Source: a virus. Taken from it: a stretch of 64,000 nt of DNA. Below are positions 14,725-33,200 of the stretch, piece after piece. The notes below the pieces were generated by a model. That model had not been told where the DNA came from. It worked only from the letters and a program-made list of their open reading frames with translations, and did not search any database. Both the position numbers and the translations under genes were made by a program. The stretch is from positions 62,001 through 126,000 of the IMG/VR virus record IMGVR_UViG_3300047469_000312; one strand, 5' to 3'. Every line of letters begins with the position of its first letter. The first letter of the stretch is position 1.

Positions 14725-15264
14725 ATGGCCACACCTAAGCCTTACGGTGGATTGAGTAGCGATCGTTTGACCGCTTTGATTAACGTCTACAACCCTGGTT
14801 TGCATCGGGTTGAGCACGTTGATTTCACGTACGGACAACCCCAAGAGTACACAGATGCTCGGGGACGGAATACTCAGGTGACGCTGACCCCGGTGGCAGG
14901 GACTGACTACGTGGGGCCGGAGGACATCCATTACAGGCGTCTACCATTAAGCGTACTGTCGTTGCTGCCTGCAGGTTGGGTTAAACCCGTTGTCATCGAT
15001 GCATTTCCGTTTTCCATTCATGCTTCGTTGGATGTAATCAACGAAGCGTTGGGCCTTAACCTGACGCCCGACGAGGTTGAAGACACAGTCTACAGCGAAG
15101 AACAAAGCACCTACCAGCTGACTGCGCTCGGTGCCAATTCCTTAGCGTGGCTGGACTCGACTTATGAGTTCCAGGTTCAATTACCGGGGGCCTTAATTCC
15201 CTTAAGTTCGGTGATTGTTCGTCCTACGCTGAGTGGTCTGGTCTACGTCCAGCCCCCTGTGTAA
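14725..15264 (+). CDS. array protein, single A module, 179 aa
   Basis: First member of the modular array. It carries module A only: an N-terminal helix pattern (LSSDRLTALINVYNPGL), a strand block ending NTQVTLTPVAGTDYVG, the YRR motif near residue 73, a second helix before LGLNLTPDEVEDTV, and the closing strand SLAWLDSTYEFQV. In this copy the YRR is followed by LPLSVLSL. No signal peptide. As a family it looks like a secretion-independent virion protein, but the location on the particle is unknown. Confidence 0.6.
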   Translation: MATPKPYGGLSSDRLTALINVYNPGLHRVEHVDFTYGQPQEYTDARGRNTQVTLTPVAGTDYVGPEDIHYRRLPLSVLSLLPAGWVKPVVIDAFPFSIHASLDVINEALGLNLTPDEVEDTVYSEEQSTYQLTALGANSLAWLDSTYEFQVQLPGALIPLSSVIVRPTLSGLVYVQPPV

Positions 15265-15285
15265 GCAGTAAAAGTTGGCGCATCC

Positions 15286-15289
15286 TATG
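15286..15289 (+). promoter_or_regulatory. candidate late promoter GCATCCTATGCG
   Basis: TATG in the context AAGCAGTAAAA...GCATCCTATGCG (15254-15291). Nearly the same composite occurs at 31394-31426, in both cases just upstream of a single-A gene that has its own terminator. The leader to the ATG at 15339 is about 50 bases. Confidence 0.5.
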
Positions 15290-15338
15290 CGAATGTGTTT
15301 TTTCTTCGACCCCATTAACCTTCCAGAAGGTATCGAAA

Positions 15339-15869
15339 ATGGCATGGCAACTTGACTTTACCAAAGACCCTGATCAGGTCCTTCTGGACCAGATCAACCA
15401 CGACAACGCCAGTGCCCTGACGCTCGCTCTTATCTCCTTCGGGATTCCGACGGCCATGACGGGCACCAATCCGAACCCGGACACGCAAATCACCGTGTCG
15501 GCGCAAGCAGGTTCGGGCTACACCGGCAGCGTGGTGGTGAACTACAACCGCGTGAACCTGTCGACGATTCCGGGCGCCCGCAGCACCGTCTACGCGCTGG
15601 GCAATGCAGCGAACATTTCGGACATGATTCCGGAAGTGAACGCCGCATACCAGATCAACCTGACGGCTGCTGACTACACCGACGGCCCGCTGCCGACCTT
15701 CACTGGCGGTGTGCCTAACGAAGAGCACAACTTCCAGATCGCTGCCACGGCGGATTCGGTTGTGTACGAAGGCGTGATGACCCTCACGCTCAAGTCCAAC
15801 GACATCCCGCTGTCGAGCGTCATTACGTCGCCGACGCTCACGGGTCTCGTGTACGTCCAACCGGCCTAA
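15339..15869 (+). CDS. array protein, single A module, own transcription unit, 176 aa
   Basis: Module A only, with a clear core: NPDTQITVSAQAGSGYTGSV, then NYNRVNLSTI, a helix before INLTAADYTDG, and a closing strand VVYEGVMTLTL. It is flanked by its own candidate promoter (15286) and a strong UUCG terminator (15899), and its codons are strongly biased to favoured C-ending forms. Isolation, strong signals and codon bias suggest an abundant product, perhaps a major decoration or sheath-surface protein. The ribosome site AGAAGG lies about nine bases before ATG. Confidence 0.6.
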   Translation: MAWQLDFTKDPDQVLLDQINHDNASALTLALISFGIPTAMTGTNPNPDTQITVSAQAGSGYTGSVVVNYNRVNLSTIPGARSTVYALGNAANISDMIPEVNAAYQINLTAADYTDGPLPTFTGGVPNEEHNFQIAATADSVVYEGVMTLTLKSNDIPLSSVITSPTLTGLVYVQPA

Positions 15870-15898
15870 GTCGTTTTGTTGGTTCAGACCTAAAACGA

Positions 15899-15920
15899 GA
15901 GGGGACCTTCGGGTCCCCTC
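15899..15920 (+). terminator. UUCG-loop hairpin terminator with T tract
   Basis: GAGGGGACC and GGTCCCCTC form a perfect 9-bp stem around TTCG, followed by TTTATT. It separates the abundant-looking 15339 gene from the rest of the array. Confidence 0.85.
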
Positions 15921-15941
15921 TTTATTCGTTAAGGGGTACGT

Positions 15942-16772
15942 ATGTCTTTTGTGCCAGTCGCTTCCGACCGGCTGTTGGCACTCATTAATCAGGCAAATCC
16001 GCATCTTCCGACACCGGTTACGAAAAGTAACCTGTATCTGGGTGGCGCACGTCTGGACCCGAGTGCCTCGGACGGCAAGTCTTCTATCGTCCCGACAGTT
16101 GGGGTGCTGGGGACAGTGTATCACGGTTATCAGGATTTCAAGTATCAGCGCATTAATCTCACGCAAGCCTACGACTATATTCCAGTCATGCGCAGTGTGG
16201 GTGCCGATACGCTGTACAACATGCTCGACACGGTCAATGCGTACCTTGGGTTGAACTTCACCCAGGCCGACGTTGTTGACACTAATATTGCGCGCGTCGA
16301 TGAAGGTGCCGCAGTCAATATCAACATTATCGCCAAACCGACTTCACTCGGCTACACTGGCTCGATGGTGTTGGAATTTCACCGGATCTGGCCGGAGCTC
16401 TCTTCGGTGATCCGCAGTGTGAGTTTGGACACACAGAACTACGATAAGATTGACCCGACGCTTAACAAGCTTGACATCGGCATGCAGATGTGGAATGTCG
16501 ATATGTCGCCGTTCTACAGCACCGCGGCTTCAGCCAATGCGTTGGCCGTGAGTGCAAGCGGTACCTGGAGTAATCTGGCGTTGCTCAAAGCAGCGATCCA
16601 GAAACAGTTCGGCTACACCGACTGGCCCACCCCTGCAGCGAGTACGGTGACCGATTACGCGACTTCGAAGTATCCTGGCGCGAACACCAACTTTGAGCGG
16701 GTCGTGGTTCAGAAAAACGTGGTGGGTAGCACCTACGTAGGCGCGGCGCTCTTCCACTATAACCAGAGCTAG
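15942..16772 (+). CDS. array protein, A+B modules, 276 aa
   Basis: Module A occupies residues ~1-165 (ALINQANPHLPTPVTKSNL, YQRINLTQ, LNFTQADVVD, SLGYTGSMVLEFH). Module B follows: MWNVDMSPFYST marks its start, a helix (LLKAAIQKQFGYTDW) its middle, and GAALFHYN its end. The end motif hHYN recurs in seven array proteins. The ATG itself lies in TATG with AAGGGG upstream. It is separated from 16781 by eight bases, so translation is probably coupled. Confidence 0.6.
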   Translation: MSFVPVASDRLLALINQANPHLPTPVTKSNLYLGGARLDPSASDGKSSIVPTVGVLGTVYHGYQDFKYQRINLTQAYDYIPVMRSVGADTLYNMLDTVNAYLGLNFTQADVVDTNIARVDEGAAVNINIIAKPTSLGYTGSMVLEFHRIWPELSSVIRSVSLDTQNYDKIDPTLNKLDIGMQMWNVDMSPFYSTAASANALAVSASGTWSNLALLKAAIQKQFGYTDWPTPAASTVTDYATSKYPGANTNFERVVVQKNVVGSTYVGAALFHYNQS

Positions 16773-16780
16773 GATTAGTC

Positions 16781-18325
16781 ATGGCGCAAACGCTTTATCC
16801 CGCACCACTGACTGCGATTCTGACTGCGATTGCGGCTCAGAACAAGGGCGTGACACTCGTGCCCAGTCAGTACACCTTTGGCAATCCTGTCGTCTATCAG
16901 GACCCCCAGGGAATTGAAAACACGTCGCTGCTGATTACGGTCAACGACGTCAATGCGCCGTACCAGGGCGCGCAAACGATTTACTATCGACGTCTGAATC
17001 TGGCAGACCTGGCGATCCTCTTGCCCCAGCCGATCTTCGGCAACGGTTGGACCACGGTCGCGGATTTCTGGGCCGTGCTCAATGCGAACTTCGGTCTGAA
17101 CTTTGTCGCAGGCGACCTGAACGACAACACGGCGCTGGTGATCGGCTCGGATGGTTCGGGTTCCGTCACCTTGACCGCGCAGCCGAATTCGTTGGGTTGG
17201 ATTGGTTCGGTGACGCTACCGTTTCAAGCCGGTAACTACGATCTGGCCACGGTGGCCACCGGCACGACGCTCTCGGGTCTCTTGTATCCGAACACCGATG
17301 CGGGGAAACCCTTCGGTGAGCTGTATTCGTACTTCCGCGACATGACGCCGTATCAGGCGCATCTGCAGAACTACACTACCTCGAGCAATGACCTGACGCA
17401 GCTCGCGCTGGATTTGAAAGCACTGACGGGTAACAACTGGACCAACGTTGCGGCCGCCCAGTACAGTTTGCAAGGTGCTTCGGTGGTGTACAACGGACTG
17501 GTGTCGGACTTCGTGCCGCTGGGTGACTCGCTTTGTACCCCCAACCCGGCCTACCAGTACGTGCTGATTGTCAAGCTGAACAACTCGTACTCGCTCGGCT
17601 ACTCGGGCTACATGTTCCTGCATTATGGTCTCATCGACCCGTATGCGAATACGGACCTCTTGCCGCCGGTGAAGACCGCGATGCTGTTGCGCTTTGACGG
17701 CATCAACGGCTCGACCATTTTGCATGACCAGGCCTATCCGTCGCGGGTCCTCAACGCCAATGCACCGGCTGCGATCTCCACCGCACAGTCGCTCTGGGGT
17801 GGTTCTTCGCTCGCGGCGTTGGCTGCAGGTGCGAACGTGACCACGGCGGACTCTGCTGAGCTGCGCCTCACCTCGGACTTCACCCTCGAGTTCGATCAGT
17901 ACCTGCTCGCGAACAACGCCGTCCAGGTGTTGGCCATGAAGGCGCCGGATAACGCCAGCTCGGGTGGTCGCATTCAGATGTATAGCGACGGGACCTTGGT
18001 GGTCTATGCGGATCAGGACGTTATTACGCCGGGTAGCCAGACGCTCACCGTGGCCGCTAACAAGCTGGTGCTCAATCAGTGGCAACATATCGCGCTGGTC
18101 AGTAAAGCAGGCGTGTGGACGCTTTACGTAGACGGTGTACCGCAAGCCACCGCGACGGCGACCGGCAAGACCTGGGGCAACAACGCAGGGATGTTGTCAA
18201 TCGGCGGTAACCCTTTCGTGACGACTGCCCCCGCGCAAGCGTACCTCGAGGAATTCCGCATCAGTAATGTCGCCCGGTACTCGGCCCTCTTCACGCCGAT
18301 CACCGATCAGTTCTACGTTGATTAA
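16781..18325 (+). CDS. array protein, A+B modules plus C-terminal LamG, 514 aa
   Basis: Module A covers ~1-165 (YYRRLNLADL, SLGWIGSVTL), module B ~175-285 (YSYFRDMTPYQ, then GASVVYNGLV and GYMFLHYG), and a LamG/concanavalin-like jelly roll ~300-514. LamG signatures are LLRFDGINGST, ELRLTSDFTLEFDQYL, NQWQHIALVSK, WTLYVDG and YLEEFRISNVARY. Such domains bind carbohydrate or act as adhesive surface modules in phage fibres. This is the only A+B gene with LamG added at the end. An AGGA site precedes the ATG. Confidence 0.7.
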   Translation: MAQTLYPAPLTAILTAIAAQNKGVTLVPSQYTFGNPVVYQDPQGIENTSLLITVNDVNAPYQGAQTIYYRRLNLADLAILLPQPIFGNGWTTVADFWAVLNANFGLNFVAGDLNDNTALVIGSDGSGSVTLTAQPNSLGWIGSVTLPFQAGNYDLATVATGTTLSGLLYPNTDAGKPFGELYSYFRDMTPYQAHLQNYTTSSNDLTQLALDLKALTGNNWTNVAAAQYSLQGASVVYNGLVSDFVPLGDSLCTPNPAYQYVLIVKLNNSYSLGYSGYMFLHYGLIDPYANTDLLPPVKTAMLLRFDGINGSTILHDQAYPSRVLNANAPAAISTAQSLWGGSSLAALAAGANVTTADSAELRLTSDFTLEFDQYLLANNAVQVLAMKAPDNASSGGRIQMYSDGTLVVYADQDVITPGSQTLTVAANKLVLNQWQHIALVSKAGVWTLYVDGVPQATATATGKTWGNNAGMLSIGGNPFVTTAPAQAYLEEFRISNVARYSALFTPITDQFYVD

Positions 18326-18340: not shown

Positions 18341-19213
18341 ATGACAGGTATTACGTCACAGCCGACGACTCTCTCCGGAGAGCAGCTGATTATCCTGCTC
18401 AATGAGACGTTCACCCCGAATCCGATCTTCTCGGATAAGAACCTGATCTTCGGTACGCCGCAAGCTGCGCCTGACGGCGCGGTGGGCTACGATACCACGG
18501 TGGACGTCACAGGGGTGCCAGGTCGAGGCTACTATGGTGACGCGGTGATTCAGTACACCCGCGTCCCCCTCTCCAATCTGGCAGGCCGGGTCTCGCTGGC
18601 CTCGCTGGATAACTTCACGCTGGCGAGCATCGCGACGTTGATGAATGCGTCCTTGGGGACGTTCCTGCAAGAGGAGGATTTTGTTCCGCAGGACATCACC
18701 ACGCCACCCCTCCTCGGTTCGAGTACGGTGACGCTGGTAGCGGCCGATGACTCGCTCGGGTGGAAAGGCTCAGTCGACATCACGATTACCCACGATAAGC
18801 CGCACCTGAATGTGGTGATCGCGAGTAATCGACTGAACACGATGTTTGACGACTATAGCGCCGCCGTGATGAACCATGTCCCGTATCGGCTCAATGGTCG
18901 GGATTACCTGTGGAACTACGACTTCACGTCGATGCGTGATGCGCTGGCGATCAAGTACTACGCTCTTAACCAGTTCGTGGGCTACAACGGCATTGCGGAC
19001 TACGCGACGCTCAGTGCGGCTTGTGCGAAAGTGGGGATTCCTTACTTTCCGGATGCTCGCTACGCCTACACGGGCGCGGGAGATTACGCGACCTCACAGA
19101 TCGCCGACAGTAACAAGAATTTTGATCGGGTAGTGATTCTCGGTACGATTTGGGCTGGTGTCTTCTACGGCAGCGCCATGTACTTTCACTACAACGTCCT
19201 CGAAAATCGTTAG
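18341..19213 (+). CDS. array protein, A+B modules, 290 aa
   Basis: I place the start at ATG 18341, six bases after GGAGA; an in-frame GTG three bases earlier would be too close to that site. Module A is seen in LLNETFTPNPIFSDKNLIFG, YTRVPLSNL and SLGWKGSVDI, and module B in LWNYDFTSMRDALA and YGSAMYFHYN. It has no LamG. Its neighbours share the same two-module plan, pointing to serial duplication. Confidence 0.6.
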   Translation: MTGITSQPTTLSGEQLIILLNETFTPNPIFSDKNLIFGTPQAAPDGAVGYDTTVDVTGVPGRGYYGDAVIQYTRVPLSNLAGRVSLASLDNFTLASIATLMNASLGTFLQEEDFVPQDITTPPLLGSSTVTLVAADDSLGWKGSVDITITHDKPHLNVVIASNRLNTMFDDYSAAVMNHVPYRLNGRDYLWNYDFTSMRDALAIKYYALNQFVGYNGIADYATLSAACAKVGIPYFPDARYAYTGAGDYATSQIADSNKNFDRVVILGTIWAGVFYGSAMYFHYNVLENR

Positions 19214-19223
19214 GGCTTGAACT

Positions 19224-20195
19224 ATGTCTCTTTATCCCAAGCAGTCCATGCAGATGCTGGTTGATTTGATCAACCAAGCAAATCCCTCTCTGCCTGTGCC
19301 GCTGACCACGACGAATGCCCTGTACGGTACGCCCACTGCGGTGACGCCGACGGGGGGCAACATTCAGAACACGTCGATCAAGGTCACCGCGCAGGCCGGG
19401 ACGAAATACGTGGGTAACACCACGCTGCTGTATCGTCGGTTGGACTTCGGTATTTTGTTCCGCAATTTGCCGATCGTCATTTACAAGTACTCGCCCAATG
19501 CTGGTTCGCCGTTTAAGATCTCGGATCTGTTGCCGTCGATCAATGCAAAGTACGGTCTGACGCTGACTACCGCCGACATCGTCGATGCCAATCTCCCTGT
19601 CGGTAACAATAACGCCGTGCCAGCCATTGGTCTGGTAGCAGGCACGCGTAACAGTGCGGCGACTGTCGCAGCCGCGACCGGTAGCCCTGGGTTTATCGGT
19701 AGCTTTACCCTTTACTGGGTGCAGGCCCCGCAGGACATCGCGTCGATGATCTCGGTGACGAGTCTGGAAAATGCCCGCGTGTTCCCTGGGGGTCGCAATG
19801 TGGTGGATAACGGCGTCTACGTGCCGGATCTGGACTTCTACTCGATCGACTGGACTAATGCGCTTAACCAGGCAGGTGTGGCGTCGAGCCAGAGTTTGGC
19901 TCAAGTCCTTGTTTTCTTGACCAGCTACGGCCTGGGCACCCAAACTGGCACAGGTGCGACGGTACATAACTCGCTGCTCGCTTCGATCAACGCCGCGATT
20001 ACTACACAGTACAACCTGACCAATCCGGCTTCGACCCCATACAGTCTGTACGGGATTAAGTTCACGAACGTGACGCTGCCGAGTGCGGCGTTGCCGGAAG
20101 CGGACAGCAAGTACTTCAATCGTGCGCTGTATCTGGATCTGCCTGCCGGTGCTTCGTGGGGCGCAGGCCGCATCATCATGCACTACAACGTTTAA
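19224..20195 (+). CDS. array protein, A+B modules, 323 aa
   Basis: Module A: LVDLINQANPSLPVPLTTTN, NTSIKVTAQAGTKYVG, YRRLDFGIL and a longer than usual loop around residues 135-155 (VAGTRNSAATVAAATGSPGF). Module B: LDFYSIDWTNALN and GAGRIIMHYNV at the end. The extra loop is the main difference from its neighbours. The ribosome site is weak (TAGGGC), so coupling to 18341 is likely. Confidence 0.6.
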   Translation: MSLYPKQSMQMLVDLINQANPSLPVPLTTTNALYGTPTAVTPTGGNIQNTSIKVTAQAGTKYVGNTTLLYRRLDFGILFRNLPIVIYKYSPNAGSPFKISDLLPSINAKYGLTLTTADIVDANLPVGNNNAVPAIGLVAGTRNSAATVAAATGSPGFIGSFTLYWVQAPQDIASMISVTSLENARVFPGGRNVVDNGVYVPDLDFYSIDWTNALNQAGVASSQSLAQVLVFLTSYGLGTQTGTGATVHNSLLASINAAITTQYNLTNPASTPYSLYGIKFTNVTLPSAALPEADSKYFNRALYLDLPAGASWGAGRIIMHYNV

Positions 20196-20204: not shown

Positions 20205-21098
20205 ATGTCGACTTTTCAACTCCCATCCTTGACTGATTTGCTGAACGCGATCAACGCCGCCAATGCGACGACGTTTACGGCGTCCGATCTGTCGTTCTCG
20301 AATCCGAAAGTGGTATCGGGGACCTGGCAAGGTTTGTCGAGCGATCGCAACACTGCGGTGAAAGTGACGGCGGCTTCAGCGAATTATCAAGGCTCGCAGG
20401 TGATTCTCTATAATCGCCTGGATTTGGCCCAGCTGGCCAATCTGCACGGCGTCACGGATCTGGCCGTGAGCAATCCGCAAACAACCTGGGACATCCTGCC
20501 CCAGCTCGCGTACTACCTGGGCATCCAGTTCGTGCAAGGGGACTTGCAGAACCTGCCGATTACGCTCAATGGCGATGGTACGGGTCAAGTGCAGCTCTCG
20601 GCGGACCCGAACTCGCTCGGCTGGCAAGGTAGCGTGATGCTCAATGTGGTGCCGGGCGGCGTGCCGATTGATGCGGCTGCTTCGACCACGAACTTGCCGG
20701 GTATTAACTATCCGGTGGCCGATGCGTCAGCCCCGCCCGCCACGGCAGTGTACGGCCCGGCGTATCTGTATCCGTACGACTTCACGTCCTGGCAGTCGAC
20801 GTTCCTGTCGTATGCGCCCGGCGCGATGACCCAGACTCAGCTCGATGCCGTGTTGGCGGCCATTCAAGCCGTGGATGTGGGCGCAGGTAAGTCGCTGTGG
20901 GTGGACACGGGCGCTAACACGACCTGGAACTTGACGGGGGCCACCATCGTCTCGAACGGCCTGAATGATGCGGTGAATAACCCGACCAACCCGGCCTACA
21001 AGTACGTGATGGCGATCCAGTTGGCAGCGAATCAGACGACGCCTTCGGGCACGCTGTACCTGCACTACAACGATCCGTTCGACCCGAACAACTTCTAA
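20205..21098 (+). CDS. array protein, A+B modules, 297 aa
   Basis: Module A: LLNAINAANATTFTASDL, NTAVKVTAASANYQGS, YNRLDLAQL, LGIQFVQGDLQNL and SLGWQGSVML. Module B: LYPYDFTSWQSTFL, a Gln/Ala-rich helix (TQTQLDAVLAAIQAV), GATIVSNGLN and SGTLYLHYN. It is the closest full-length relative, by pattern, of the orphan B module in 22563. The gene ends at the hairpin at 21112. Confidence 0.6.
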   Translation: MSTFQLPSLTDLLNAINAANATTFTASDLSFSNPKVVSGTWQGLSSDRNTAVKVTAASANYQGSQVILYNRLDLAQLANLHGVTDLAVSNPQTTWDILPQLAYYLGIQFVQGDLQNLPITLNGDGTGQVQLSADPNSLGWQGSVMLNVVPGGVPIDAAASTTNLPGINYPVADASAPPATAVYGPAYLYPYDFTSWQSTFLSYAPGAMTQTQLDAVLAAIQAVDVGAGKSLWVDTGANTTWNLTGATIVSNGLNDAVNNPTNPAYKYVMAIQLAANQTTPSGTLYLHYNDPFDPNNF

Positions 21099-21148: not shown

Positions 21149-22036
21149 ATGTACCCATTTCTTGACACGCAGTTGAACACCTTGCTCGGGTTGATTAACA
21201 CGTCGAATCCCGGTCTGAAGGTGCCTCTGACGACCGCGATGCTACGCTCGTTGGTGCCAACTGTCGTAACACCTGGCTCCGGCCAGATTCAGGACACGAG
21301 CCTGGTGCTCCTGTCCTTGCCCGGTAATGTCGGTCAGTATATCGGTAAGCAAACGGTGTATTACCGGCGCATTAACCTGGCTAATCTTTTCCGCAGCATG
21401 ACGTTGACGCTCGATAACTACATCGGCTCAACGAGCATGACACCCGCGCAGTTCTGTCAGTGTTTCAATGCCAAGTACGGCACCGAGCTGACGACGAGCG
21501 ATTTCACTGCCTCGAATTTTACCTCGGGCAACTCGTACACCGTTACGATGCTGTCGACGTCCTTGTGCTACGAAGGGTCATTTACTTTCAAGTGGACGCA
21601 AGGTGCGCCGTACATGAGCCAGGTCATCACGACCCCGGTACTGACGGGTAAGCTGTATCCGGGCGGGAACACCTTTGGCGGTGGCCGTAAACCCCAGGCT
21701 GATGTGTTGAGCTACGGTCTCGATTGTTCGAAGATTCGTACGCAGCTTTTAGCACTGAGCTCATCCTCCACACCGACCCCTTCAAACTGGCTCCTGGCAG
21801 GCAGTGCGTTGGCAGGCATTTTGGCTTTTCTGCAACAGAGCCTACCGAGTCTGAATCTGAGCGGCCAGGATTCCACCACCACGTCCGGTGGTTTGGGTAA
21901 TCTGCTGGTGTCGCGCTACACGTTGCCTTCGGCTTCAGTGCCGGGCGCGAATAGCAACAAGTTTGCGTATGTGGTAACGATCACGGCGGTATCCGGGTCC
22001 TGGTTTCAGGGCGCGTTCTATCTGCACTTTAATTAA
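21149..22036 (+). CDS. array protein, A+B modules, 295 aa
   Basis: Module A: LLGLINTSNPGLKVPLTTAM, YYRRINLANLF and an altered closing strand (SLCYEGSFTFKWT). Module B: DVLSYGLDCSKIRTQLL, a Ser/Thr/Pro-rich loop (SSSSTPTPSN), LPSASVPGANSNKFAYVV and GAFYLHFN, where the usual HYN becomes HFN. GAGG lies before the ATG. Cys is more frequent than in sister genes. Confidence 0.6.
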   Translation: MYPFLDTQLNTLLGLINTSNPGLKVPLTTAMLRSLVPTVVTPGSGQIQDTSLVLLSLPGNVGQYIGKQTVYYRRINLANLFRSMTLTLDNYIGSTSMTPAQFCQCFNAKYGTELTTSDFTASNFTSGNSYTVTMLSTSLCYEGSFTFKWTQGAPYMSQVITTPVLTGKLYPGGNTFGGGRKPQADVLSYGLDCSKIRTQLLALSSSSTPTPSNWLLAGSALAGILAFLQQSLPSLNLSGQDSTTTSGGLGNLLVSRYTLPSASVPGANSNKFAYVVTITAVSGSWFQGAFYLHFN

Positions 22037-22562: not shown

Positions 22563-22907
22563 ATGGCAACGACTTTTTGGCCGAACTATCTCTTCTTCAC
22601 GGACTTTTCCAGCGATGGCGATGTGCTGGCAAAAGTACCACTCGGTACACTGAGTGCGACGGATGTGACGCTCCTGGCGGCATCTCTGAGCACCCATGAC
22701 AAGGGCGAGCATCGTGCCCAATGGACCGACAAAGAAGAAGAGCCTTATACGCTGGCTGGAGCCGAGGTGAGGTTTAACGGCGTGAACCACACGCACCTGC
22801 CCTCGAACGCTTTGTTCAAGTACGCGCTGGTGCTGGAGTTGCCGTGGGCCAATGGTCCACACAATCTTCTGGTTTTGCAGTACAACGAAACACCTCGGCA
22901 AGCGTAA
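22563..22907 (+). CDS. array protein, stand-alone B module (C-terminal half of a split gene), 114 aa
   Basis: It opens with NYLFFTDFSSDGDVLAK, which matches the start of module B in A+B genes (YLYPYDFTSW), and continues with a helix, GAEVRFNGVN and LLVLQYNE, where the usual HYN becomes QYN. No module A precedes it in frame. It has its own AAAGGA ribosome site, so the pair 22049/22563 could make two subunits that reconstitute one A+B protein. A hairpin follows at 22916. Confidence 0.6.
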   Translation: MATTFWPNYLFFTDFSSDGDVLAKVPLGTLSATDVTLLAASLSTHDKGEHRAQWTDKEEEPYTLAGAEVRFNGVNHTHLPSNALFKYALVLELPWANGPHNLLVLQYNETPRQA

Positions 22908-24788: not shown

Positions 24789-26462
24789 ATGGCAATCCAT
24801 GACTTGTGGTCGTTTGATAATGCGCCAGTGGGTACGAGTTTGCTCACCGGCACGACTGACCTCACCTCGACCACGGGGCCGAGCAACGTTTACAACTACT
24901 ACACCGGAAACCCAGGCTGCACCTACACTTACAGTGGCAGTACGCTGGCGGTGGACGCAAATGGCTTTGCTACCTCGACGAATAACTCGAGCGGCAACGG
25001 CAGCATGATTTGGTTTAAGCTCGCCCAAGCGCTGAACATGAGCGGTGCCACCAAGTGGGGTATCGGTTTTCGAACCAAATCCAGTCAAGCAGTGACCGGC
25101 TCCACGCCGGGCCGAGTGTTCATCACCACCGCAGGCTTTGCGACCGCGACGTTGCTGATCTGGATCTCGGAAGCGGATCTGGTCGCTCCAGCTAATACCG
25201 AGCTCTATGTGGAGCTTATCGTTGATTCGGTGGCGCTCACGTACTGGCTGTATGTGAATGGTAATCTGGTGCGTTCGACGACATTCTCCGCCAGTGCCTT
25301 TCCGGCGACGGGTTACGGTGTGTTTGGAACCGGTAGTACAGTAGGAACGGCCAATGCTGCGCGGGGTTATCGGGATTTCTACTTTTTGGATTTTGATAGC
25401 ACCGATACGGTACGACTGGGTCCGATTCGTTCATCGCACGCGGGTCTTTCGAATATCGCTGGAACGGACTGGACACTCAATAGCGCAGCGGATTTGCCCA
25501 CGGCTTTGACAACCGTCTTGCAGAACCCGCCGGTCACCACGCCGAGTGCGTCAGCTCCGGCGAACAACCAGCCTGTGACTGCGAACCTAAGCACCAGCGT
25601 GGCAGCGAATGTGCCCATCATCGCCGTGCAGCCACAGCTCACCCTGATCGGTGATTCAGCGTCGAATTCGATCGATGTATCCTTTAGCCAGGCATCGAAC
25701 ACGCTGGCTGCGGGTAAAATTGTCGTGCCACCCAACACGAACCTCTTCAACCAAAAGTGGGGTGTGCAACGTAAGGCGCCTGACGGTGGGTTGTGGACAC
25801 CGGCAAAGATCAATGCGTCGAGCGCAATCCTCACGCCGAAGACCCTCAACACCGTGGTCTTGATGCACATGGAAAGTTTCGTCGATGACACAGGTCGGAC
25901 CTGGACATCGAACGGCAATGGTGTACTCACCACGGGTCAGGTGGCCATGGGGAGCAAGTCGTATAACTCGAGCACCACGGGTAACCTCTCGGTTGCTTCC
26001 GATGCGACGATGGTGCTCGGTAGCGCGATGACGGTTGAGTTCTGGCTTTATCGGACCGCAGCACTGGGCGACACGACCATTCTCAGTTCGAAGACTGCTA
26101 ATACCACTACAGGCCAAACCTCAATTGGTCAGCAGTCTGATAAGGGATTAGGGATTTACCTGACTGACGGCTCGGGTTGGAAGACACTGGCCCCGGCCGC
26201 CGCCTTTACGCTCAACAAATGGCAGCATTGTGCTGTGGTGTACGCCAATGGTGTCTATACAGGCTACATCGGCGGGGTGGCCCAAGGCACTCTGACGTCG
26301 GCACTGACCTTTGGTCTGTCGGGCAGTACGTGGACGATCGGTGGCAACCAGTACAATACGGCTTCGCAGTTCCCAGGCTACATCGATGAACTGCGGGTGA
26401 GTAACATCGCACGCTACACCGCGAACTTCACCCCGCCTTCCGCGCCCTTTGTGATCGACTAA
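24789..26462 (+). CDS. array protein, family C with C-terminal LamG, 557 aa
   Basis: The C module starts MAIHDLWSFDNAPVGTS and includes ELIVDSVALTYWLYVNG and YRDFYFLDFDSTDTVRLGP. A second segment has NNQPVTANLSTSV and RKAPDGGLWTPAKI (~250-345). LamG at ~352-557 shows VVLMHMESF, LGSAMTVEFWLYR, NKWQHCAVVYAN, YTGYIGG and YIDELRVSNIARY. Unlike 22977, LamG is appended whole at the end. Carbohydrate or surface binding is the likely role. Confidence 0.65.
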   Translation: MAIHDLWSFDNAPVGTSLLTGTTDLTSTTGPSNVYNYYTGNPGCTYTYSGSTLAVDANGFATSTNNSSGNGSMIWFKLAQALNMSGATKWGIGFRTKSSQAVTGSTPGRVFITTAGFATATLLIWISEADLVAPANTELYVELIVDSVALTYWLYVNGNLVRSTTFSASAFPATGYGVFGTGSTVGTANAARGYRDFYFLDFDSTDTVRLGPIRSSHAGLSNIAGTDWTLNSAADLPTALTTVLQNPPVTTPSASAPANNQPVTANLSTSVAANVPIIAVQPQLTLIGDSASNSIDVSFSQASNTLAAGKIVVPPNTNLFNQKWGVQRKAPDGGLWTPAKINASSAILTPKTLNTVVLMHMESFVDDTGRTWTSNGNGVLTTGQVAMGSKSYNSSTTGNLSVASDATMVLGSAMTVEFWLYRTAALGDTTILSSKTANTTTGQTSIGQQSDKGLGIYLTDGSGWKTLAPAAAFTLNKWQHCAVVYANGVYTGYIGGVAQGTLTSALTFGLSGSTWTIGGNQYNTASQFPGYIDELRVSNIARYTANFTPPSAPFVID

Positions 26463-26543: not shown

Positions 26544-27620
26544 ATGACTTTGCGAGCCTTGTGGACGTACGATCACATTGCCAACGCATCCAACGTCCCA
26601 CTGACTGCGATCGCTGCATATACACCGAACAATGCGTATAATCAGCTCACCGGTAATCCGGGTACGCTGATTCTACGCGCCGGTACGTCAAATTGCGTGA
26701 TCAATAGCGTCGTGGCAGGTGCGTCGGGTGGCACTTATCGTGGTGGCGGACTGGGATTTGGCAATAGCACCTCGCAGGCTCAGGCACTGGTCGTGGCGCT
26801 TGCCGATATTCCTTTGTTGCAAAGTGGCGCGACCAAAGCTTACATTGGTTTTCGCACCTGGAGCTCAGCGATTCCCGCACCTGGCACCTCATCGGTATTT
26901 GGGACGGCTTCTTCGGCGACGGTTGCACCGACCTCGCTGGTGAACGAGACGCAGCTCAGTCGGACCGTGAATGTGACGCAGTACGTGGAGGTGATGCTCG
27001 ACATCGCCAACAGTCAGTACACGGCCTGGGTCGATGGGTTGAAGATCATCGATAAGGCCGTGCTGGCGACTGGTTTTACGTATCTGGTATTTGGCTCGAA
27101 CGCAGTGACAACGAACTCCTGCAACTTCTCGCTGCAGGACTTCTACTTCATCGACGGCGACGCAACGCTACCCAATACGCGACTGGGTCCTATTCAGTCC
27201 GCGGTCGCACAGTACGCGGCCGTGACCGCCCCAAACTATTCGTCAAGCGACGGCAAGTCCGCCTTGCTGGATTTCCAGACCGGCTACAGCGCTACACCGT
27301 CGCCCGCGCCGACGCAGTCGAATGCTCCGACCAACGACCCGATTACGGTGACGTATCAGTCGACCGCACCTGCAGGCGCAGGCATGATTGCGGTGCAGTA
27401 CAAGATGGCGGCAAGCGTGACGGCAGCGGCGCAAGTCACGGCACAGTTGAATAACGGTTCAGCCACGAAGAATCTGCCCAACTACAGTTTCACCGATACG
27501 ACGATGGATTACGGTCGGGATCTGGCGGGTGTGCAGACGACGGACCCGAGTGGCAATGCGTGGAGTGATGCGCGCTTTAATGCGACGCAGTTGATCGTTC
27601 AGCCCGTGTCGACCACCTAG
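26544..27620 (+). CDS. array protein, family C without LamG, 358 aa
   Basis: It begins MTLRALWTYDHIANASN and ends with the same C-terminal module as 22977 (GRDLAGVQTTDPSGNAWSDA compared with a one-for-one similar block there). Between the N- and C-terminal modules there is no LamG: the join is at about residue 235 (SAVAQYAAVTAPNYSSSDGK). It is thus the LamG-free counterpart of 22977, useful for dating the insertion. The ribosome site is AGAGAG. Confidence 0.6.
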   Translation: MTLRALWTYDHIANASNVPLTAIAAYTPNNAYNQLTGNPGTLILRAGTSNCVINSVVAGASGGTYRGGGLGFGNSTSQAQALVVALADIPLLQSGATKAYIGFRTWSSAIPAPGTSSVFGTASSATVAPTSLVNETQLSRTVNVTQYVEVMLDIANSQYTAWVDGLKIIDKAVLATGFTYLVFGSNAVTTNSCNFSLQDFYFIDGDATLPNTRLGPIQSAVAQYAAVTAPNYSSSDGKSALLDFQTGYSATPSPAPTQSNAPTNDPITVTYQSTAPAGAGMIAVQYKMAASVTAAAQVTAQLNNGSATKNLPNYSFTDTTMDYGRDLAGVQTTDPSGNAWSDARFNATQLIVQPVSTT

Positions 27621-27700: not shown

Positions 27701-28750
27701 ATGGCTATCCGAGATTTTTGGGGCTTCGACAATATCCCTCCTTACACGGCAGGTGCCACGGCGCTTAACTACTTGCGCGGCGATATTGTGGTCACCAACT
27801 ATTACACTAACTACGGAACCGTGATCAAAGGGACCGGCAGCTGGGCGAACTGGCTGACGTGCATTGGTGCCACTAACCCGTATCCGAACACGAATTACGG
27901 GACCTACAATCCGCTCATTTCCATCCCCTATCAGAACCTCAGCGTTTTTAGCGCGCCGCGCAGCTTTATCGGGATGCGGTTTCAGGTCAATAATAACAGC
28001 CTGTCCGTCCCGGTGCTGTATTTACAGAACACAGCAGGCACTAAGCAGACCCTGGTGCTGAATACGCAGCTGGCACTAAACACCCCCCAGTACATCGAGG
28101 TAATGATTGATCGTGCCAACACCCAGATCGTGGTGTGGATCGACGGGGTGCAAGTGTCGAGCACGTTCTTTGACTTCAATGCGTTCGTGTCGGCTGACGG
28201 TAACGCCTCGCTGGTATGGGGCTGTAACAATTCTTCAGCTAATTACACCTGGTACCTGCGCGACGTGTACTTCTTGGACGACACCCAGGATGCCACGCAA
28301 TGTAATCGCCTCGGTCCGGTGGATGTTACGCCTGCCGCTTTGGCCAGCGTGACGGCACCGAACTGGACCTCCAGCGATAGCAGCACGGCGTTGGTCGACC
28401 TGTCGACGCCGCTTGGCACAACGGCCGGGTCTCAAAATGCACCGCTGCTGACAGAGCCCGCGACCATGGACCCGTTGCAGTTCAAGCTCTCGAATGCGGG
28501 CCTGATTGCAGGCGAGAGTATTCTCGCTGCGAAAGCGGACGTGTCGGGCCAGCGCACGGCGAGTTACATCTTCGCCCCACAGGCGAGTGTTTCGTATAAC
28601 GGCCAGTCCGTGAATGGTAAGCAAATTACCTATCCGAACGGCGCCCAGATGTACTGGAATCAGAACGCGTTTGTGCTCGAGAAAGCACCGGATGGCACGC
28701 CCTTCACACCCCAGTCGTTGGCGGCGATGGTCGCGACCCTCACCCCGTAA
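27701..28750 (+). CDS. array protein, family C without LamG, divergent C-terminus, 349 aa
   Basis: The N-terminal C module is clear (MAIRDFWGFDNIPPYTAG, EVMIDRANTQIVVWIDG, YLRDVYFLDDTQ). The C-terminal segment differs from sister genes: it retains GESILAAKADVSG and KAPDGTPFTPQSL but the middle is unique (APQASVSYNGQSVNGKQ). It suggests replacement or fast divergence in this part. The ribosome site is weak (AAGAGAG at distance). Confidence 0.6.
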   Translation: MAIRDFWGFDNIPPYTAGATALNYLRGDIVVTNYYTNYGTVIKGTGSWANWLTCIGATNPYPNTNYGTYNPLISIPYQNLSVFSAPRSFIGMRFQVNNNSLSVPVLYLQNTAGTKQTLVLNTQLALNTPQYIEVMIDRANTQIVVWIDGVQVSSTFFDFNAFVSADGNASLVWGCNNSSANYTWYLRDVYFLDDTQDATQCNRLGPVDVTPAALASVTAPNWTSSDSSTALVDLSTPLGTTAGSQNAPLLTEPATMDPLQFKLSNAGLIAGESILAAKADVSGQRTASYIFAPQASVSYNGQSVNGKQITYPNGAQMYWNQNAFVLEKAPDGTPFTPQSLAAMVATLTP

Positions 28751-28765: not shown

Positions 28766-29839
28766 ATGGCCCTTCACGATTTGTGGCATTTTGAGAATGC
28801 GCCAGTGGGGATGACACTGAGTGCCGCGGGATCGAGTTATAACGGCAACACGATCTACAACCAGTATACTGGCAATGTCGGTCAGCCGCTCACCTACGTT
28901 AATAACACTACCCCCAGCAACATCTTCTCCGTGACGGCCGATGGCTTCTTGTCGAACGCCGCTAATTCGTCCGGTCAATGCGGGGCGCTCTTTGTACCCA
29001 CCGCAGCTGTGCAGGACTGGAGCGTGGCAACGCAGTATTGGTTTGGTTTCCGCACGAAGCTGATCGTGAATAACACGCTCGGTGCACCCCATGTGGTCAT
29101 CGTGACCAACAGCACATCCTTCGGTAGCTGGACTTCGCTGCTCGATGAGTCACATCTGATCGCAGCAGGGATGGTGGGCGTGGGTGGTGAAATCTACATT
29201 GAGGTCTTTATCGATCGTAGTGCACTGACGTTCCAGGTGTATGGCAACGGCGTTCTGATCAATTCCGGTACGGTGACGTCCGCTGTCTTTAACAGCACGG
29301 GCTACATTACCTTTGGAGGCGCGTCCACCGGGAGCGCGAATTACGCACGCGGCTATCGCGACTTCTATTTTCTCGACGTGGATGCATCGACGCCGGGTCG
29401 ACTGGGTCCGATTCGCGCCAAAGCGTCGCGCACGGCGGCCGCGTCGGGCTCGGAATGGGTACCTAACGGCGCAGCAGATCTGGTGACGGTGCTCAATACC
29501 GCTAACCAAAACCCGCCCGTCATTAGCCCCTATGCGCAGGCTCCGGCAGATAACCAGTCCCTGGCTGTGACGATGGGCGTCACCGTTAATGACAGTAGTC
29601 AGAAAGTCCTGGCTGTTCAACCCACACTGTCGTTTCAACCGAGTGGGGCTGGTCCCGCCAAGATTGCAGCGAGCTTTGCGGATGCTTCCAGTAACGTTTC
29701 ACCGCTTGGCCAGTTTGCCAATAGCAATGGACTGGTACTGAATCAAAAGTTGCCTTGGCAGACGAAAGCGCCGGATGGTTCAAACTGGACAGGCGCGAAG
29801 ATTAACCAGACTCAGTTCGTACTGACACCCACTAACTAA
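28766..29839 (+). CDS. array protein, family C without LamG, 357 aa
   Basis: It begins MALHDLWHFENAPVGMTLSA, closest by pattern to 24789 (MAIHDLWSFDNAPVGTSLL), and shares YRDFYFLDVDAS, AVQPTLSFQ and TKAPDGSNWTGAKI with that protein's non-LamG part. It reads as 24789 without its LamG. It follows 27701 by 15 bases in a tight unit that continues into 29850. Confidence 0.6.
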   Translation: MALHDLWHFENAPVGMTLSAAGSSYNGNTIYNQYTGNVGQPLTYVNNTTPSNIFSVTADGFLSNAANSSGQCGALFVPTAAVQDWSVATQYWFGFRTKLIVNNTLGAPHVVIVTNSTSFGSWTSLLDESHLIAAGMVGVGGEIYIEVFIDRSALTFQVYGNGVLINSGTVTSAVFNSTGYITFGGASTGSANYARGYRDFYFLDVDASTPGRLGPIRAKASRTAAASGSEWVPNGAADLVTVLNTANQNPPVISPYAQAPADNQSLAVTMGVTVNDSSQKVLAVQPTLSFQPSGAGPAKIAASFADASSNVSPLGQFANSNGLVLNQKLPWQTKAPDGSNWTGAKINQTQFVLTPTN

Positions 29840-29849
29840 GGAGGAGTGA

Positions 29850-31397
29850 ATGACGACAACAATTCGCTACTTCGCCCCACTGGTGTGGCAAGGAACGAGC
29901 AGTAGTGCCCAGGTTCGTCAAGCCGCCCCTGTCGTGTGGACGACGCAAAACATCAACGCGTATTTCCGCCAAATGCAGGCAGTGCAGTGGTTCAGCTCAC
30001 CCACGCCTGTCACGTTGCGTAAGGTGACCGCACTGCAGTGGTCGCAGGACAACCCCACGATGTCGATCCGGCGCGTGATGGCCTTGCAATGGACGCAGGA
30101 CGCCATCGGCGCAAAGTTCCGGGCAATGCCCGCAGTGACGTGGACCAAGCTATCCAGTAGTGGCTCGCTGCGTCAGGTGTCGGCCTTTGCGATGCAGAAG
30201 TCATCGACCCAAGGCCAGTTGCGTCAAGTCTCTGCATTCGTCATGCAGAAGAAACAGTTCCAGATTAAGACAGGAGGTTTGGCGGGTTTGTGGGCATTGA
30301 TTCAAGCTGACGCGAAGCAGACCATCTCCCAGTCACAGTTATCGGTGAGCGCGCCCGTTGCAGATAGTTCACAGATCAACTGTAACACTTACGTGACGGT
30401 GGCGCCCATCGGCACGTTGCTGCAGCAGTACTCAGGCACGTACAAGCTCTATTACAATCGCACGGACATTGCGAACGCGTTTCTAGGTGGCACCAATAAC
30501 ACCTGGAAGCTCGGCACGATTAGTTCGGCTACGACCATTCGCGCGCTGATCCCTCAGATCAACACGCAATACGGCTTGACGCTTGATCCGACGGATGTGG
30601 TGGATGGTCCGGTTGCAGCGAACGCGACAAAGTTGCAGCTGGTGGTCGATCCGAACAGCTACGTATTTGCGCCGGGCACGAATGTGTACCTGATGAATTC
30701 CGTGGTGTTGTCGACAGCAGTGACGACAGTGAATCTGCCTGGCTTTGCTAATGCAAGCGGCGTCGGTCCCGCAGCCAATACGAAGTTGCTGATGCATTTT
30801 GACAATGCAGGCACCTCGGCCTACGCGGATGTGCTCGGCCATACCGTTACCAACAATGGTGCAGCAGTAGCTGGTGCTGGAGGTAAATTTGGTGCCGGTT
30901 ACTTCCCATCGGGTGCCGGATATCTTGCTGTGAGTGACGCGCCCGATTTGCATTTTACGGGTGATCTGACGATTGAGTTTTGGGCTTGGCACAACAACGT
31001 CACTCAAAACGGCATGATTTTGTCCAAGGGCACGAGCGCCCAATCAGGTTACCAGTATATCCAGTCCACTAGTGGCCTGGTTCGCATCCTCGGGACCGAC
31101 GGTAGTGTCATCGTGGGTACGCCTGATACAAGCAGTACCAAAGTGGGTACGTGGCAGCATTTTGCCTTTGTACGCGCTGGCAACAGTTGGAAATGTTTCG
31201 TCGATGGTGTGTTGGTACAAACCGTTACCAGTACTCAAACATTTGGTAACAACACCTACCCGCTGTGGATCGGTCAATTCCTCAACGGTAGTACAGCCAT
31301 GCTGTTTAATGGCCGCATCGATGAGTTGCGCCTGAGTAACATGGCTCGCTACACGACGACTTTTATCCCACCTGCTGCTCCATTTGTAGTAGATTAA
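29850..31397 (+). CDS. array protein: eight 17-residue repeats, A module, LamG, 515 aa
   Basis: Residues 5-140 are eight repeats of exactly 17 residues with the pattern [ILVF]-R-x(3)-[AP]-[LVF]-x-[WM]-x(8); examples are LRKVTALQWSQDNPTMS and IRRVMALQWTQDAIGAK. The last two units replace Trp with Met. A module A follows (~145-300; GLAGLWALIQADAKQTISQS, YYNRTDIANAF), then LamG (~311-515; LLMHFDNAG, FTGDLTIEFWAW, GTWQHFAFVRAG, RIDELRLSNMARY). A perfect AAGGAGG site precedes the ATG. The repeats suggest a beta-solenoid or fibre-shaft segment. Confidence 0.7.
   Translation: MTTTIRYFAPLVWQGTSSSAQVRQAAPVVWTTQNINAYFRQMQAVQWFSSPTPVTLRKVTALQWSQDNPTMSIRRVMALQWTQDAIGAKFRAMPAVTWTKLSSSGSLRQVSAFAMQKSSTQGQLRQVSAFVMQKKQFQIKTGGLAGLWALIQADAKQTISQSQLSVSAPVADSSQINCNTYVTVAPIGTLLQQYSGTYKLYYNRTDIANAFLGGTNNTWKLGTISSATTIRALIPQINTQYGLTLDPTDVVDGPVAANATKLQLVVDPNSYVFAPGTNVYLMNSVVLSTAVTTVNLPGFANASGVGPAANTKLLMHFDNAGTSAYADVLGHTVTNNGAAVAGAGGKFGAGYFPSGAGYLAVSDAPDLHFTGDLTIEFWAWHNNVTQNGMILSKGTSAQSGYQYIQSTSGLVRILGTDGSVIVGTPDTSSTKVGTWQHFAFVRAGNSWKCFVDGVLVQTVTSTQTFGNNTYPLWIGQFLNGSTAMLFNGRIDELRLSNMARYTTTFIPPAAPFVVD
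29862..30269 (+). repeat. eight tandem 51-base coding repeats
   Basis: The 17-residue units of the 29850 protein correspond to eight 51-base units with no length variation. Nucleotide identity between units is limited, so they are old or diversified repeats rather than a recent slippage product. Units 7 and 8 are the most alike (LRQVSAFAMQK and LRQVSAFVMQK). Confidence 0.75.
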
Positions 31398-31420
31398 GCA
31401 GTAAAAAAATACTTGCATCC

Positions 31421-31451: not shown

Positions 31452-31485
31452 GTGCAGTAGATCACTTCTCCTTTAAGGAACGGAA

Positions 31486-32028
31486 ATGGCAAAAATCAAC
31501 ACCAGCTTGTCGGCGTTGGATAACCTGCTCGCGCTCGTCAATGCCGCTAATACCGGCCAGACGATCACGAACGCGCAAGTGACTGCAGGTGCACCCAGCG
31601 TCAAATCCGATACGGGTGACGGCCGTAACACCACAGTAGCACTGACGGCCGTTGGCGGCCAGGGTTACACGGGTGCGGTCTCGGTCAACTACACCCGCCG
31701 GGGTCTGAACGACTCGGTGCTCAGCCCGGTCGATAGCTACACCGCGACCACCGGTACCACGGCGGCTGCGCTCGTGACGGCGCTGGCTGCTCAGCTCGGC
31801 CTGGTGGAGTCGGAACTGCATCTCGAAGATCCGGCGGCTCCGGGTACACCGCTTTCGGGCGCACAGAGCGGCAATCAAGCCACGCTCGATCTGGTGGCTA
31901 ATGCGGGTTCGCTGCTGTACGTGGACGGTTCGCTGCAAGCGATCGCCATGACCTGGCAGGCTCCGCAAGTCGCGCTGGACTCGGCCGTTACGGTCACGGA
32001 CCTCTCGGGCTTCGACGCCGCAAGCTAA
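31486..32028 (+). CDS. array protein, single A module, own transcription unit, 180 aa
   Basis: Module A only: LDNLLALVNAANTGQTITNA, NTTVALTAVGGQGYTGAV, NYTRRGLND, LGLVESELHLEDP and SLLYVDGSLQAIAMTWQ. Like 15339 it is bounded by its own TATG element (31421) and UUCG terminator (32048) and has strongly biased codons. The pair may be the abundant members of the family. An AAGGAACGG site precedes the ATG. Confidence 0.6.
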   Translation: MAKINTSLSALDNLLALVNAANTGQTITNAQVTAGAPSVKSDTGDGRNTTVALTAVGGQGYTGAVSVNYTRRGLNDSVLSPVDSYTATTGTTAAALVTALAAQLGLVESELHLEDPAAPGTPLSGAQSGNQATLDLVANAGSLLYVDGSLQAIAMTWQAPQVALDSAVTVTDLSGFDAAS

Positions 32029-32047
32029 GCACTTCAGTGCTCGTAGG

Positions 32048-32067
32048 GGTGGAGCTTCGGCTCTGCC
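32048..32067 (+). terminator. UUCG-loop hairpin terminator with wobble pairs
   Basis: GGTGGAGC and GCTCTGCC pair around TTCG with two G-T wobbles, followed by TTTATGCCG. Confidence 0.7.
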
Positions 32068-32069
32068 TT

Positions 32070-32101
32070 TATGCCGTCATTTTCTACAGGTCCATTTTAT
32101 G
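32070..32101 (+). promoter_or_regulatory. candidate late promoter (TATG at 32070 and 32098)
   Basis: TATGCCG at 32070 follows the hairpin, and a second TATG at 32098 (TTTTATGACC) is 26 bases from the ATG of 32127. The leader has no clear Shine-Dalgarno sequence. Confidence 0.4.
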
Positions 32102-32126
32102 ACCTTTCCTTATTTTGGCGACCCGA

Positions 32127-33200
32127 ATGAAAATCGACCCCACAAAAAGCGCAGTACAGAATCTGCTTGCGCTGATTGATGCCTCCAATGCGCAGGCACC
32201 GAATCTTCCTAACGAGGTGACAGTAAGTGCCGTGACGACTGGTAGTTTCCCGAATGGGGCTGATACTAAAGTCACCCTGACGGGTACTGGCCCTCAGGGC
32301 AGTTACGCGAATTTTACAGGCAGCGTCGATGTCACCTATAAACGGCTGACACTCGCTGCTGAGGCTGCCAGCCCTGCAGGTCCTGTACCCGTGCAGTTGG
32401 GTACGAGTAAGGCCGCCACGCTGGCAGCTGTGAGCCAGTATTTTGGTTTCATTCCTTCTGAAATTTCAGCACCAAGCTTTACTCCGCAAGGCACGGCAGG
32501 CAACCAAACTGTCACCTTGCAGGCGAGCGGTTCGTTGATCTACGAGGATGGTTCGACGAACGTTACCGTCGCATGGCAACCACCTAAGACCGTGCTCTTG
32601 ATGCATTTTGAGGGCAGCAACGGCAGCACAGTCTTTACGGATGCAGCGGGTCACCCGATGACGCCAGGCGGCTCGGCACAGCTGACCACCAGCAGCCCGT
32701 TGATCGGAACTTCTTCGTACACCTCAAATGACGCCCTGAGTTATGTTACGACGCCCGATGCGCCTGAGCTGGAGTTGACGGGAGATTTCACGATTGAGTT
32801 CTTCCTGGCACTGGCCAGCACGACTACGCCTCAAGTCGTTTTCTCCAAGGGCACGGGTTCGTATATCGACCACTACAACGGTCAGTTCTACGTTTCATTG
32901 GGTAGCACCAATTCACCGATTATCCAGGTGACGTCTAATGTGGTGGCTGGTACCCGTTATCACGTGGCGATCACCAAGCACGGCACCACGGTCACCTTGT
33001 GGTTAAATGGCGTATCACTCGCTACCGCGACCTCTAGTCTGCCGTTCGGTCAAAATACCAACGCCCTGTGTGTGGGTAACTGGACCAATGGTTTGAACCT
33101 GGGTTTGGCAGGCGGTAAAATGGACGAAGTGCGCGTTTCCAATGTCGCCCGTTACACGAGTGCCTTTACGGCACCGACTACTCCCTTTACGCTGGATTAA
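32127..33200 (+). CDS. array protein, A module plus C-terminal LamG, 357 aa
   Basis: The ATG at 32127 gives MKIDPTKSAVQNLLALIDAS, matching module A starts elsewhere; an in-frame TTG at 32115 is the alternative. Neither has a convincing ribosome site, unusual for this genome. Module A runs ~1-150 (YKRLTLAAE, FGFIPSEISAPS). LamG runs 154-357 (VLLMHFEGSNGST, LTGDFTIEFFLAL, GTRYHVAITKHG, KMDEVRVSNVARY). The last gene of the array, ending at the UACG hairpin at 33222. Confidence 0.65.
   Translation: MKIDPTKSAVQNLLALIDASNAQAPNLPNEVTVSAVTTGSFPNGADTKVTLTGTGPQGSYANFTGSVDVTYKRLTLAAEAASPAGPVPVQLGTSKAATLAAVSQYFGFIPSEISAPSFTPQGTAGNQTVTLQASGSLIYEDGSTNVTVAWQPPKTVLLMHFEGSNGSTVFTDAAGHPMTPGGSAQLTTSSPLIGTSSYTSNDALSYVTTPDAPELELTGDFTIEFFLALASTTTPQVVFSKGTGSYIDHYNGQFYVSLGSTNSPIIQVTSNVVAGTRYHVAITKHGTTVTLWLNGVSLATATSSLPFGQNTNALCVGNWTNGLNLGLAGGKMDEVRVSNVARYTSAFTAPTTPFTLD

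Follow-up and report, generated by a model that had tools for sequence, protein, structure and literature searches.

Probable docking modules with replaceable lectin tips in a tandem DUF7941 gene array of a jumbo phage

The 18 adjacent genes at positions 14,725 to 33,200 of a 64,000-nucleotide stretch of viral DNA (the window, positions 62001-126000 of the 172,464-base virus record IMGVR_UViG_3300047469_000312) are built from a module A, a module B, LamG domains and a family that we call C, and we consider that they probably encode baseplate-peripheral docking modules with replaceable lectin tips. We favour this reading because a conserved anchor carries a changeable tip, adhesins occur on the same anchor elsewhere, and a solved relative of the anchor lies at the periphery of a baseplate. 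In our proposal, the A module (DUF7941) would dock the protein on the particle, with the baseplate's outer periphery as the likeliest site, and B would serve as a second, probably flexible, module; the ConA-like LamG domains, together with the related jelly roll of family C, would be exposed tips that touch cell-surface glycans. The docking part would stay in its slot, tips would be lost, gained, replaced or copied between slots, and the phage could thereby vary its contacts with surfaces while leaving the baseplate as it is. In this way the array probably offers the phage several different means of gripping bacterial surfaces.

All 18 genes are open on the plus strand at the coordinates given here, without internal stops, and the order of modules agrees in 18 of 18 with that read in the original prediction. 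PF25613 is the Pfam profile of DUF7941 and PF13385 that of Laminin_G_3.

g01, 14725..15264, plus strand: A alone; PF25613 at 83.2 bits
g02, 15339..15869, plus strand: A alone; PF25613 at 109.2 bits
g03, 15942..16772, plus strand: A+B; PF25613 profile positions 9-275 of 276
g04, 16781..18325, plus strand: A+B+LamG; PF25613 and PF13385
g05, 18341..19213, plus strand: A+B; PF25613
g06, 19224..20195, plus strand: A+B; PF25613
g07, 20205..21098, plus strand: A+B, the member nearest to phiKZ gp127 and SPN3US_0143
g08, 21149..22036, plus strand: A+B; PF25613
g09, 22049..22549, plus strand: A alone; PF25613
g10, 22563..22907, plus strand: B alone; matches phrog_1037 and B of g07
g11, 22977..24701, plus strand: family C, LamG inserted between C-N and C-C
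g12, 24789..26462, plus strand: family C with C-terminal LamG
g13, 26544..27620, plus strand: family C
g14, 27701..28750, plus strand: family C; sub-threshold Laminin_G_3 match in the C-N part
g15, 28766..29839, plus strand: family C
g16, 29850..31397, plus strand: N-terminal short repeats, A (PF25613, residues 147-311) and LamG (PF13385, residues 354-500)
g17, 31486..32028, plus strand: A alone; PF25613
g18, 32127..33200, plus strand: A+LamG; PF25613 and PF13385

The name DUF7941, put forward earlier for module A, is right for both A and A+B. PF25613 exceeds its curated cut-off of 27 bits in 12 of the 18 genes (g01-g09 and g16-g18, 39.4-177.5 bits), and no match beyond these 12 was found in the whole record at E 0.001. 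The 276-position profile describes A and B together; it is spanned nearly in full by g03-g08, and g01, g02, g09 and g16-g18 cover only its A part. The B-alone gene g10 has no Pfam match at E 1; it matches positions 187-283 of phrog_1037 (E 5.3e-8) and is 28% identical to the B part of g07. Since g09 (A) and g10 (B) lie 13 bases apart, have the joint length of one A+B gene and keep their adjacent order in six related records, they may be one A+B gene split in two. The two halves of module A are related to each other (hhalign probability 80%, E 1.4e-5), which makes A a tandem repeat. Module B shows no significant relation to A by hhalign, and the idea, taken from secondary structure, that B is a third copy of the A repeat was not supported (hhalign probability about 1%). 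At the start of g16 (window 29850-30278), about six short degenerate repeats can be seen by eye before A, and a shorter version is present in R399, one of the related contigs described below.

The A+B model, made for g07 (297 residues, 85 sequences), has a mean predicted local distance difference test score (pLDDT) of 89.0. Its best match in the Protein Data Bank is chain 0 of 9xqd, phiKZ gp127, both by Foldseek (E 1.4e-6; next row 0.19) and by superposition (Z 10.4, root-mean-square deviation 3.4, 137 residues aligned, model residues 2-149; next row Z 4.3); matches ranked below 9xqd (Z <=4.3) were not used. The title of 9xqd is that of the outer peripheral region of the phiKZ baseplate complex. 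The structural match is to A only, and only the A part of gp127 appears to have been modelled, because the structure library counts 150 residues for a chain whose deposited sequence has 290. A profile search links A+B to the same chain at E 1.2e-29, and the best match of gp127 in the array is g07 (24%, E 3.3e-9). Reciprocal best matches also connect g07 with SPN3US_0143 (35%, E 7.9e-53) and g17 with SPN3US_0160 (43%).

PF13385 is above its curated cut-off of 27.6 bits in five genes, g04, g11, g12, g16 and g18. The five C genes (g11-g15) resemble each other at 25-47%, and each of them matches phrog_2448 (E 3.4e-6 to 3.2e-12). In g11, the LamG domain (about residues 243-424) sits inside C, as it does at the same place in relatives: residues 1-237 of g13 align with 1-240 of g11, and residues 233-358 with 447-569. 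In g12, unlike g11, LamG is appended at the C-terminal end. Modelling suggests that family C is probably a second lectin-type family with a jelly roll, because residues 1-219 of the g11 model (C-N) match 5mqr, 3zyp, 8q2a, 8q28 and 8q29 at Z 13.3-14.2, which we take to be ConA-like chains, and because the C-N part of g14 has a PF13385 match below the cut-off (16.2 bits, E 9.8e-4; window 27971-28273, record 89971-90273). The LamG part of the g11 model matches jelly-roll chains (pentraxins, CBM40 and similar) at Z 13-15; the search tool notes that single-domain matches of models above 400 residues, such as this one, can score weak. By sequence, family C found nothing among solved structures, and the best match there of the g04 LamG has an E of 0.091. 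The LamG-bearing g11-type members match phrog_13163, a "baseplate wedge subunit", in 10 of 23 cases, and g15 has weak tblastn matches to tail-cluster proteins of Chi-like phages. The folds are thus largely unrelated, A differing from the ConA-like C and B from A. The original prediction had counted such a result against itself, yet the idea is not weakened, because a difference in fold between anchor and tip is to be expected.

On sequence grounds, the phage of the window is a member of the nucleus-forming jumbo phages (Chimalliviridae), because its record encodes a homologue of chimallin (ChmA), with one match to phiKZ gp54 at E 6.4e-34. The same query found chimallin in 9 of 11 records, including Burkholderia phage FLC9 and five related contigs; it gave no match in FLC8, a miss that says little, as FLC8 is placed in Chimalliviridae in print (PMC11898562). 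FLC9 is the nearest named relative, being the sole match in the phage collection (75% DNA identity, 30% of the array region).

The array was compared with FLC9 and five IMG/VR contigs (R319, R472, R861, R399 and R915). Positional counterparts of all 18 genes occur, in order, in FLC9, R319, R472 and R861, of which R319 is nearly identical to the window (97-100%). The order of g01-g10 is kept in six related records, the R915 locus that was read holding only g04-g10; in R399 and R915, which are more distant, the C genes differ in number and order. Within the array, paralogue pairs found by BLAST share 24-47% amino acid identity, and the one direct DNA repeat of at least 40 nucleotides (exact seed 14) is a 49-nucleotide pair at 78%. 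The array is therefore long kept and its copies diverged, as the original prediction had it; a recent expansion is not supported, as there are no long DNA repeats.

Architecture is kept in 15 of the 18 slots among the window, R472, R861 and FLC9, with changes at g12, g16 and g18. A comparison of relatives had been proposed for the gain, loss and swapping of LamG; LamG differs in presence at g04 and g18 and in type at g16. The g04 counterparts in R399 and R915 have no LamG (285 and 287 amino acids), and g18 is present in two copies in R472 and FLC9 and as A only in R915. Pooled amino acid identities with the window, by module, are as follows.

R861: A 92.1%, B 92.2%, LamG 61.2%, C-N 72.3%, C-C 67.9%
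R472: A 89.7%, B 90.1%, LamG 72.9%, C-N 89.3%, C-C 92.3%
FLC9: A 74.1%, B 66.1%, LamG 50.3%, C-N 59.6%, C-C 61.8%

In 10 of 11 comparisons of g04, g16 and g18, identity is lower in LamG than in A; g04 against R861 departs from this (96 versus 95%). Against R472, g04 has 95% identity in A, 96% in B and 56% in LamG; against R861 the values are 95, 97 and 96%. Along g04, DNA identity to R472 is 88-99% as far as about position 17,680 and then 49-83% until about 18,310; against R861, with 72-99% throughout, there is no such drop. The tip of g16 has been replaced: against R861, A is 83% and LamG 22% identical, against FLC9 74% and 27%, and the slot holds two unlike tips, one in the window and R472 and the other in R861 and FLC9 (59% to each other). 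The tip type of the window's g16 sits at the end of FLC9 gp314, as its third LamG (70%, tree support 100/99). The g18 tip of R861 shares 75% identity with the tip of the FLC9 C gene gp315 (tree support 100/100), as against 49% with g18 of the window and 54% with FLC9 gp308. The LamG tree has 29 inner branches, 9 open and 13 starred, and only starred branches were relied on; the R861 g16 tip is absent from it, having been missed by the custom LamG hidden Markov model though found by PF13385.

We counted 22 LamG units with a slot in the LamG-bearing genes of the window, R472, R861 and FLC9, a set that leaves out units 2 and 3 of FLC9 gp314 and gp315 (no window slot) as well as R319, R399 and R915. 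Every one of the 22 N parts is closest to its own slot, as are 19 of the tips; the other 3 tips are closest to a different slot. The array had been described earlier as a combinatorial surface kit. This holds in that the presence, type and copy number of LamG differ among relatives and that A carries surface-binding tips in other phages; with 15 slots fixed and most tips in their own slot, the array is not freely combinatorial, and we reject free shuffling as a general rule.

The A module is the N-terminal part of recognised adhesin and tailspike-type proteins in other phages. SPN3US_0155 begins with A and continues as a Gp38 tail-fibre adhesin, and Gp38 also turns up in SPN3US-like loci, in 3 of their 32 long members. 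In Moabite gp205/206, A is followed by matches to tail-fibre and hydrolase PHROGs, Pfam seeing DUF7941 only (gp206 has no match among solved structures at E 0.01). FBKp24 has two adjacent "bifunctional tail proteins" that start with A, and Goslar_00086 consists of A+B followed by the TIM-barrel domains of a non-contractile tail sheath-type protein. In the more distant FLC8, both A-type matches fall in a single gene of 352 residues, which lies four genes downstream of the one of gp101 type and is followed by a 1236-residue protein with collagen repeats. Counted at E 0.01 with sub-threshold matches included, 14 of 16 records have PF25613 matches: SPN3US 17, FLC9 16, G004 15, G002 14, G001, G003 and G005 13 each, Goslar 10, Moabite 9, Deimos-Minion 5, 201phi2-1 4, phiKZ 3, and FLC8 and LAh10 2 each, with none in EL and Yong MS32. 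LamG occurs in nine of these records (six of the window's group, FLC8, Deimos-Minion and Yong MS32); by position, LamG and DUF7941 share one frame only in the window's group. The longer relatives also have one more short DUF7941 gene, made of A only and remote from the array (G001:208855-209286, G002:89593-90024, G003:70058-70489 and FLC9 77249-77728). Outside phages, DUF7941 has an odd occurrence in Spaid-like proteins of Spiroplasma, reported in a 2026 paper (PMC13375240).

A wider reading, to which we give somewhat less than even weight, is that A is a general docking socket of jumbo-phage particles on which unrelated tips (LamG, Gp38, tailspike beta-helix, TIM-barrel) have been grafted. 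The window's group would then have a socket array with exchangeable lectin tips, and the head assignment in SPN3US would be either partly in error or the sign of a second use of the socket, bound to the head.

Several observations weigh against docking modules with lectin tips. Nine DUF7941 genes (g01-g03, g05-g09 and g17) and the B-alone g10 have no recognised tip, and tip display therefore does not explain these ten genes. Tip exchange is uncommon, as the slot count indicates; g11 and g12 show no general trend towards greater variability in LamG than in C; and Pfam recognises no further family in 29 of the 32 long proteins from SPN3US-like loci. The models are of uneven quality (predicted template modelling score of the A+B model 0.57; mean pLDDT of the g11 model, from 23 sequences, 70.8), and of the same LamG-bearing C set 10 of 23 match each of two "head and packaging" families, phrog_701 and phrog_18802. 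We infer lectin activity and any effect on host range, and likewise, from homology and neighbouring genes, the location on the particle of the window's phage.

The location is contested between the baseplate periphery, as for phiKZ gp127, and the head, to which mass spectrometry assigned the SPN3US proteins. Family B of SPN3US (gps 83, 138-154, 161 and 237, with gp160 in Table 1) was assigned to the head in print on its presence in tailless particles, and gp141 and gp160, both PF25613 matches, are estimated there at more than 300 copies each per capsid (PMC5694885), numbers that would hardly fit a baseplate. PHROG also files the DUF7941 family under "head and packaging", and the window's array is tied to the SPN3US genes by the g07-0143 and g17-0160 pairs; of the 17 PF25613 matches in SPN3US, 13 fall in 12 genes of 0138-0155 and one in 0160. 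Such data would fit an array that decorates the capsid, or is cargo in it, with LamG as a head decoration. We think this unlikely, although the SPN3US data are the strongest evidence against the baseplate reading: phiKZ gp127 is modelled in the baseplate periphery, GenBank calls it a "structural protein" whereas its neighbour gp128 is a "structural head protein", the tips found elsewhere are of tail adhesin and tailspike types, and gp237 of family B was moved to the tail in 2023, family B proteins still being marked in the head-particle gel (PMC10052503). As far as the sequence goes, either the DUF7941 family serves both head and baseplate or the window's members follow phiKZ.

More doubtful still is a fixed scaffold, in which each slot is a distinct building block and LamG divergence is ordinary fast drift with no role in host range. 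The constant order of g01-g10, the N parts all in slot with most tips beside them, and the ten genes in which no tip is recognised (a count that leaves out C-only genes) are what it would predict. Drift does not, however, account for two unlike tips at g16, for off-slot tips at 75% and 70% identity, for the presence or absence of LamG at g04 and g18, or for the two copies of g18 in FLC9 and R472. We reject an assembly or annotation artefact (collapsed or chimeric repeats): the window record, at 172 kb, is about half the size of the closest contigs (311-315 kb) and so may be a fragment, but all 18 genes have counterparts in three other contigs and the isolated phage FLC9, and the array copies share no long near-identical DNA.

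The array begins 392 bases downstream of the following trio of genes.

10888..12258, plus strand: phiKZ gp99-type virion protein; phmmer to 9xps PHIKZ099 at E 8.2e-71; PHROG 3013
12275..12961, plus strand: gene in the phiKZ gp100 position, by position only; PHROG 32111, function not known
12971..14332, plus strand: phiKZ gp101-type protein; phmmer to 9xph PHIKZ101 at E 4.5e-60

The third gene also matches 36za, "Inner-peripheral baseplate spoke gp220" (E 6.3e-44), and the gp99- and gp101-type neighbours count in favour of the baseplate reading. 201phi2-1 has a gene between its homologues of gp99 and gp101 whose annotation notes a similarity to phiKZ gp100. A few kilobases upstream of the array (window 4045-7781) lie internal head protein paralogues (PHROG 6807 and 2497). 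Window 1233-2339 gave no match to solved structures at E 0.01. At window 44007-45887, a dihydrofolate reductase domain is followed by a part that matches a PHROG without known function.

Among the virion gene families of several jumbo phages, DUF7941 ranks with the larger ones, reaching 17 matches in a single genome of the records searched. A connection of this family with the periphery of the phiKZ baseplate and with grafted adhesins suggests, in concrete terms, how receptor-binding proteins may be held and exchanged in these phages, and it conflicts directly with the published head assignment in SPN3US. In the open literature, we found no function for DUF7941, only the Spiroplasma paper matching the name, and no account of the LamG fusions, of the lectin-type C genes beside them or of a DUF7941 link to the baseplate periphery or grafted adhesins. 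LamG domains on jumbo-phage fibres have already been noted (PMC7824862).

The closest known system is FLC9 (LC667451), whose gp326-gp307 are collinear with the window's array and all annotated as hypothetical. Genes g01-g18 are homologous to gp326-gp308, with 55-84% amino acid identity in best pairs (for g16 over residues 1-331 of 515 only). Unlike the window, FLC9 has an extra C+LamG gene (gp315), an extra A+LamG gene (gp307), two added short-A+LamG units in gp314, and a different tip with a Gly-rich segment in gp310. Tandem arrays of this type are not unique to the window: paralog family B of SPN3US is related, and both the array type and the family were already known. Family B is a tandem array overlapping DUF7941 in which A is fused to longer C-terminal parts, as in the window; 11 of the 17 genes SPN3US_0138-0154 match PF25613, as does 0160, compared with 12 of 18 here. 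The SPN3US genome, unlike the window, has no LamG match, and its Gp38 adhesin gene 0155 adjoins family B without being in the published family list. phiKZ has gp127, a DUF7941 protein whose A-part structure matches the g07 model, and three PF25613 matches in all (one below the cut-off), but no such array and no LamG match. phiKp24 (FBKp24), with the two adjacent tail proteins that begin with A, resembles the window's phage in that many receptor-binding proteins are carried per particle; its published description gives 14 beta-helix depolymerase fibres in a hyperbranched arrangement that dock through T4 gp10-like domains (PMC9700779). For family C, a weak relative is YSD1_32 of a Chi-like siphophage (24-25% over 74% of the query), encoded three genes after the distal tail protein and behind the tail fibre gene; this tail-cluster protein belongs to another type of phage than the window's, and two records name it a carbohydrate-binding protein.

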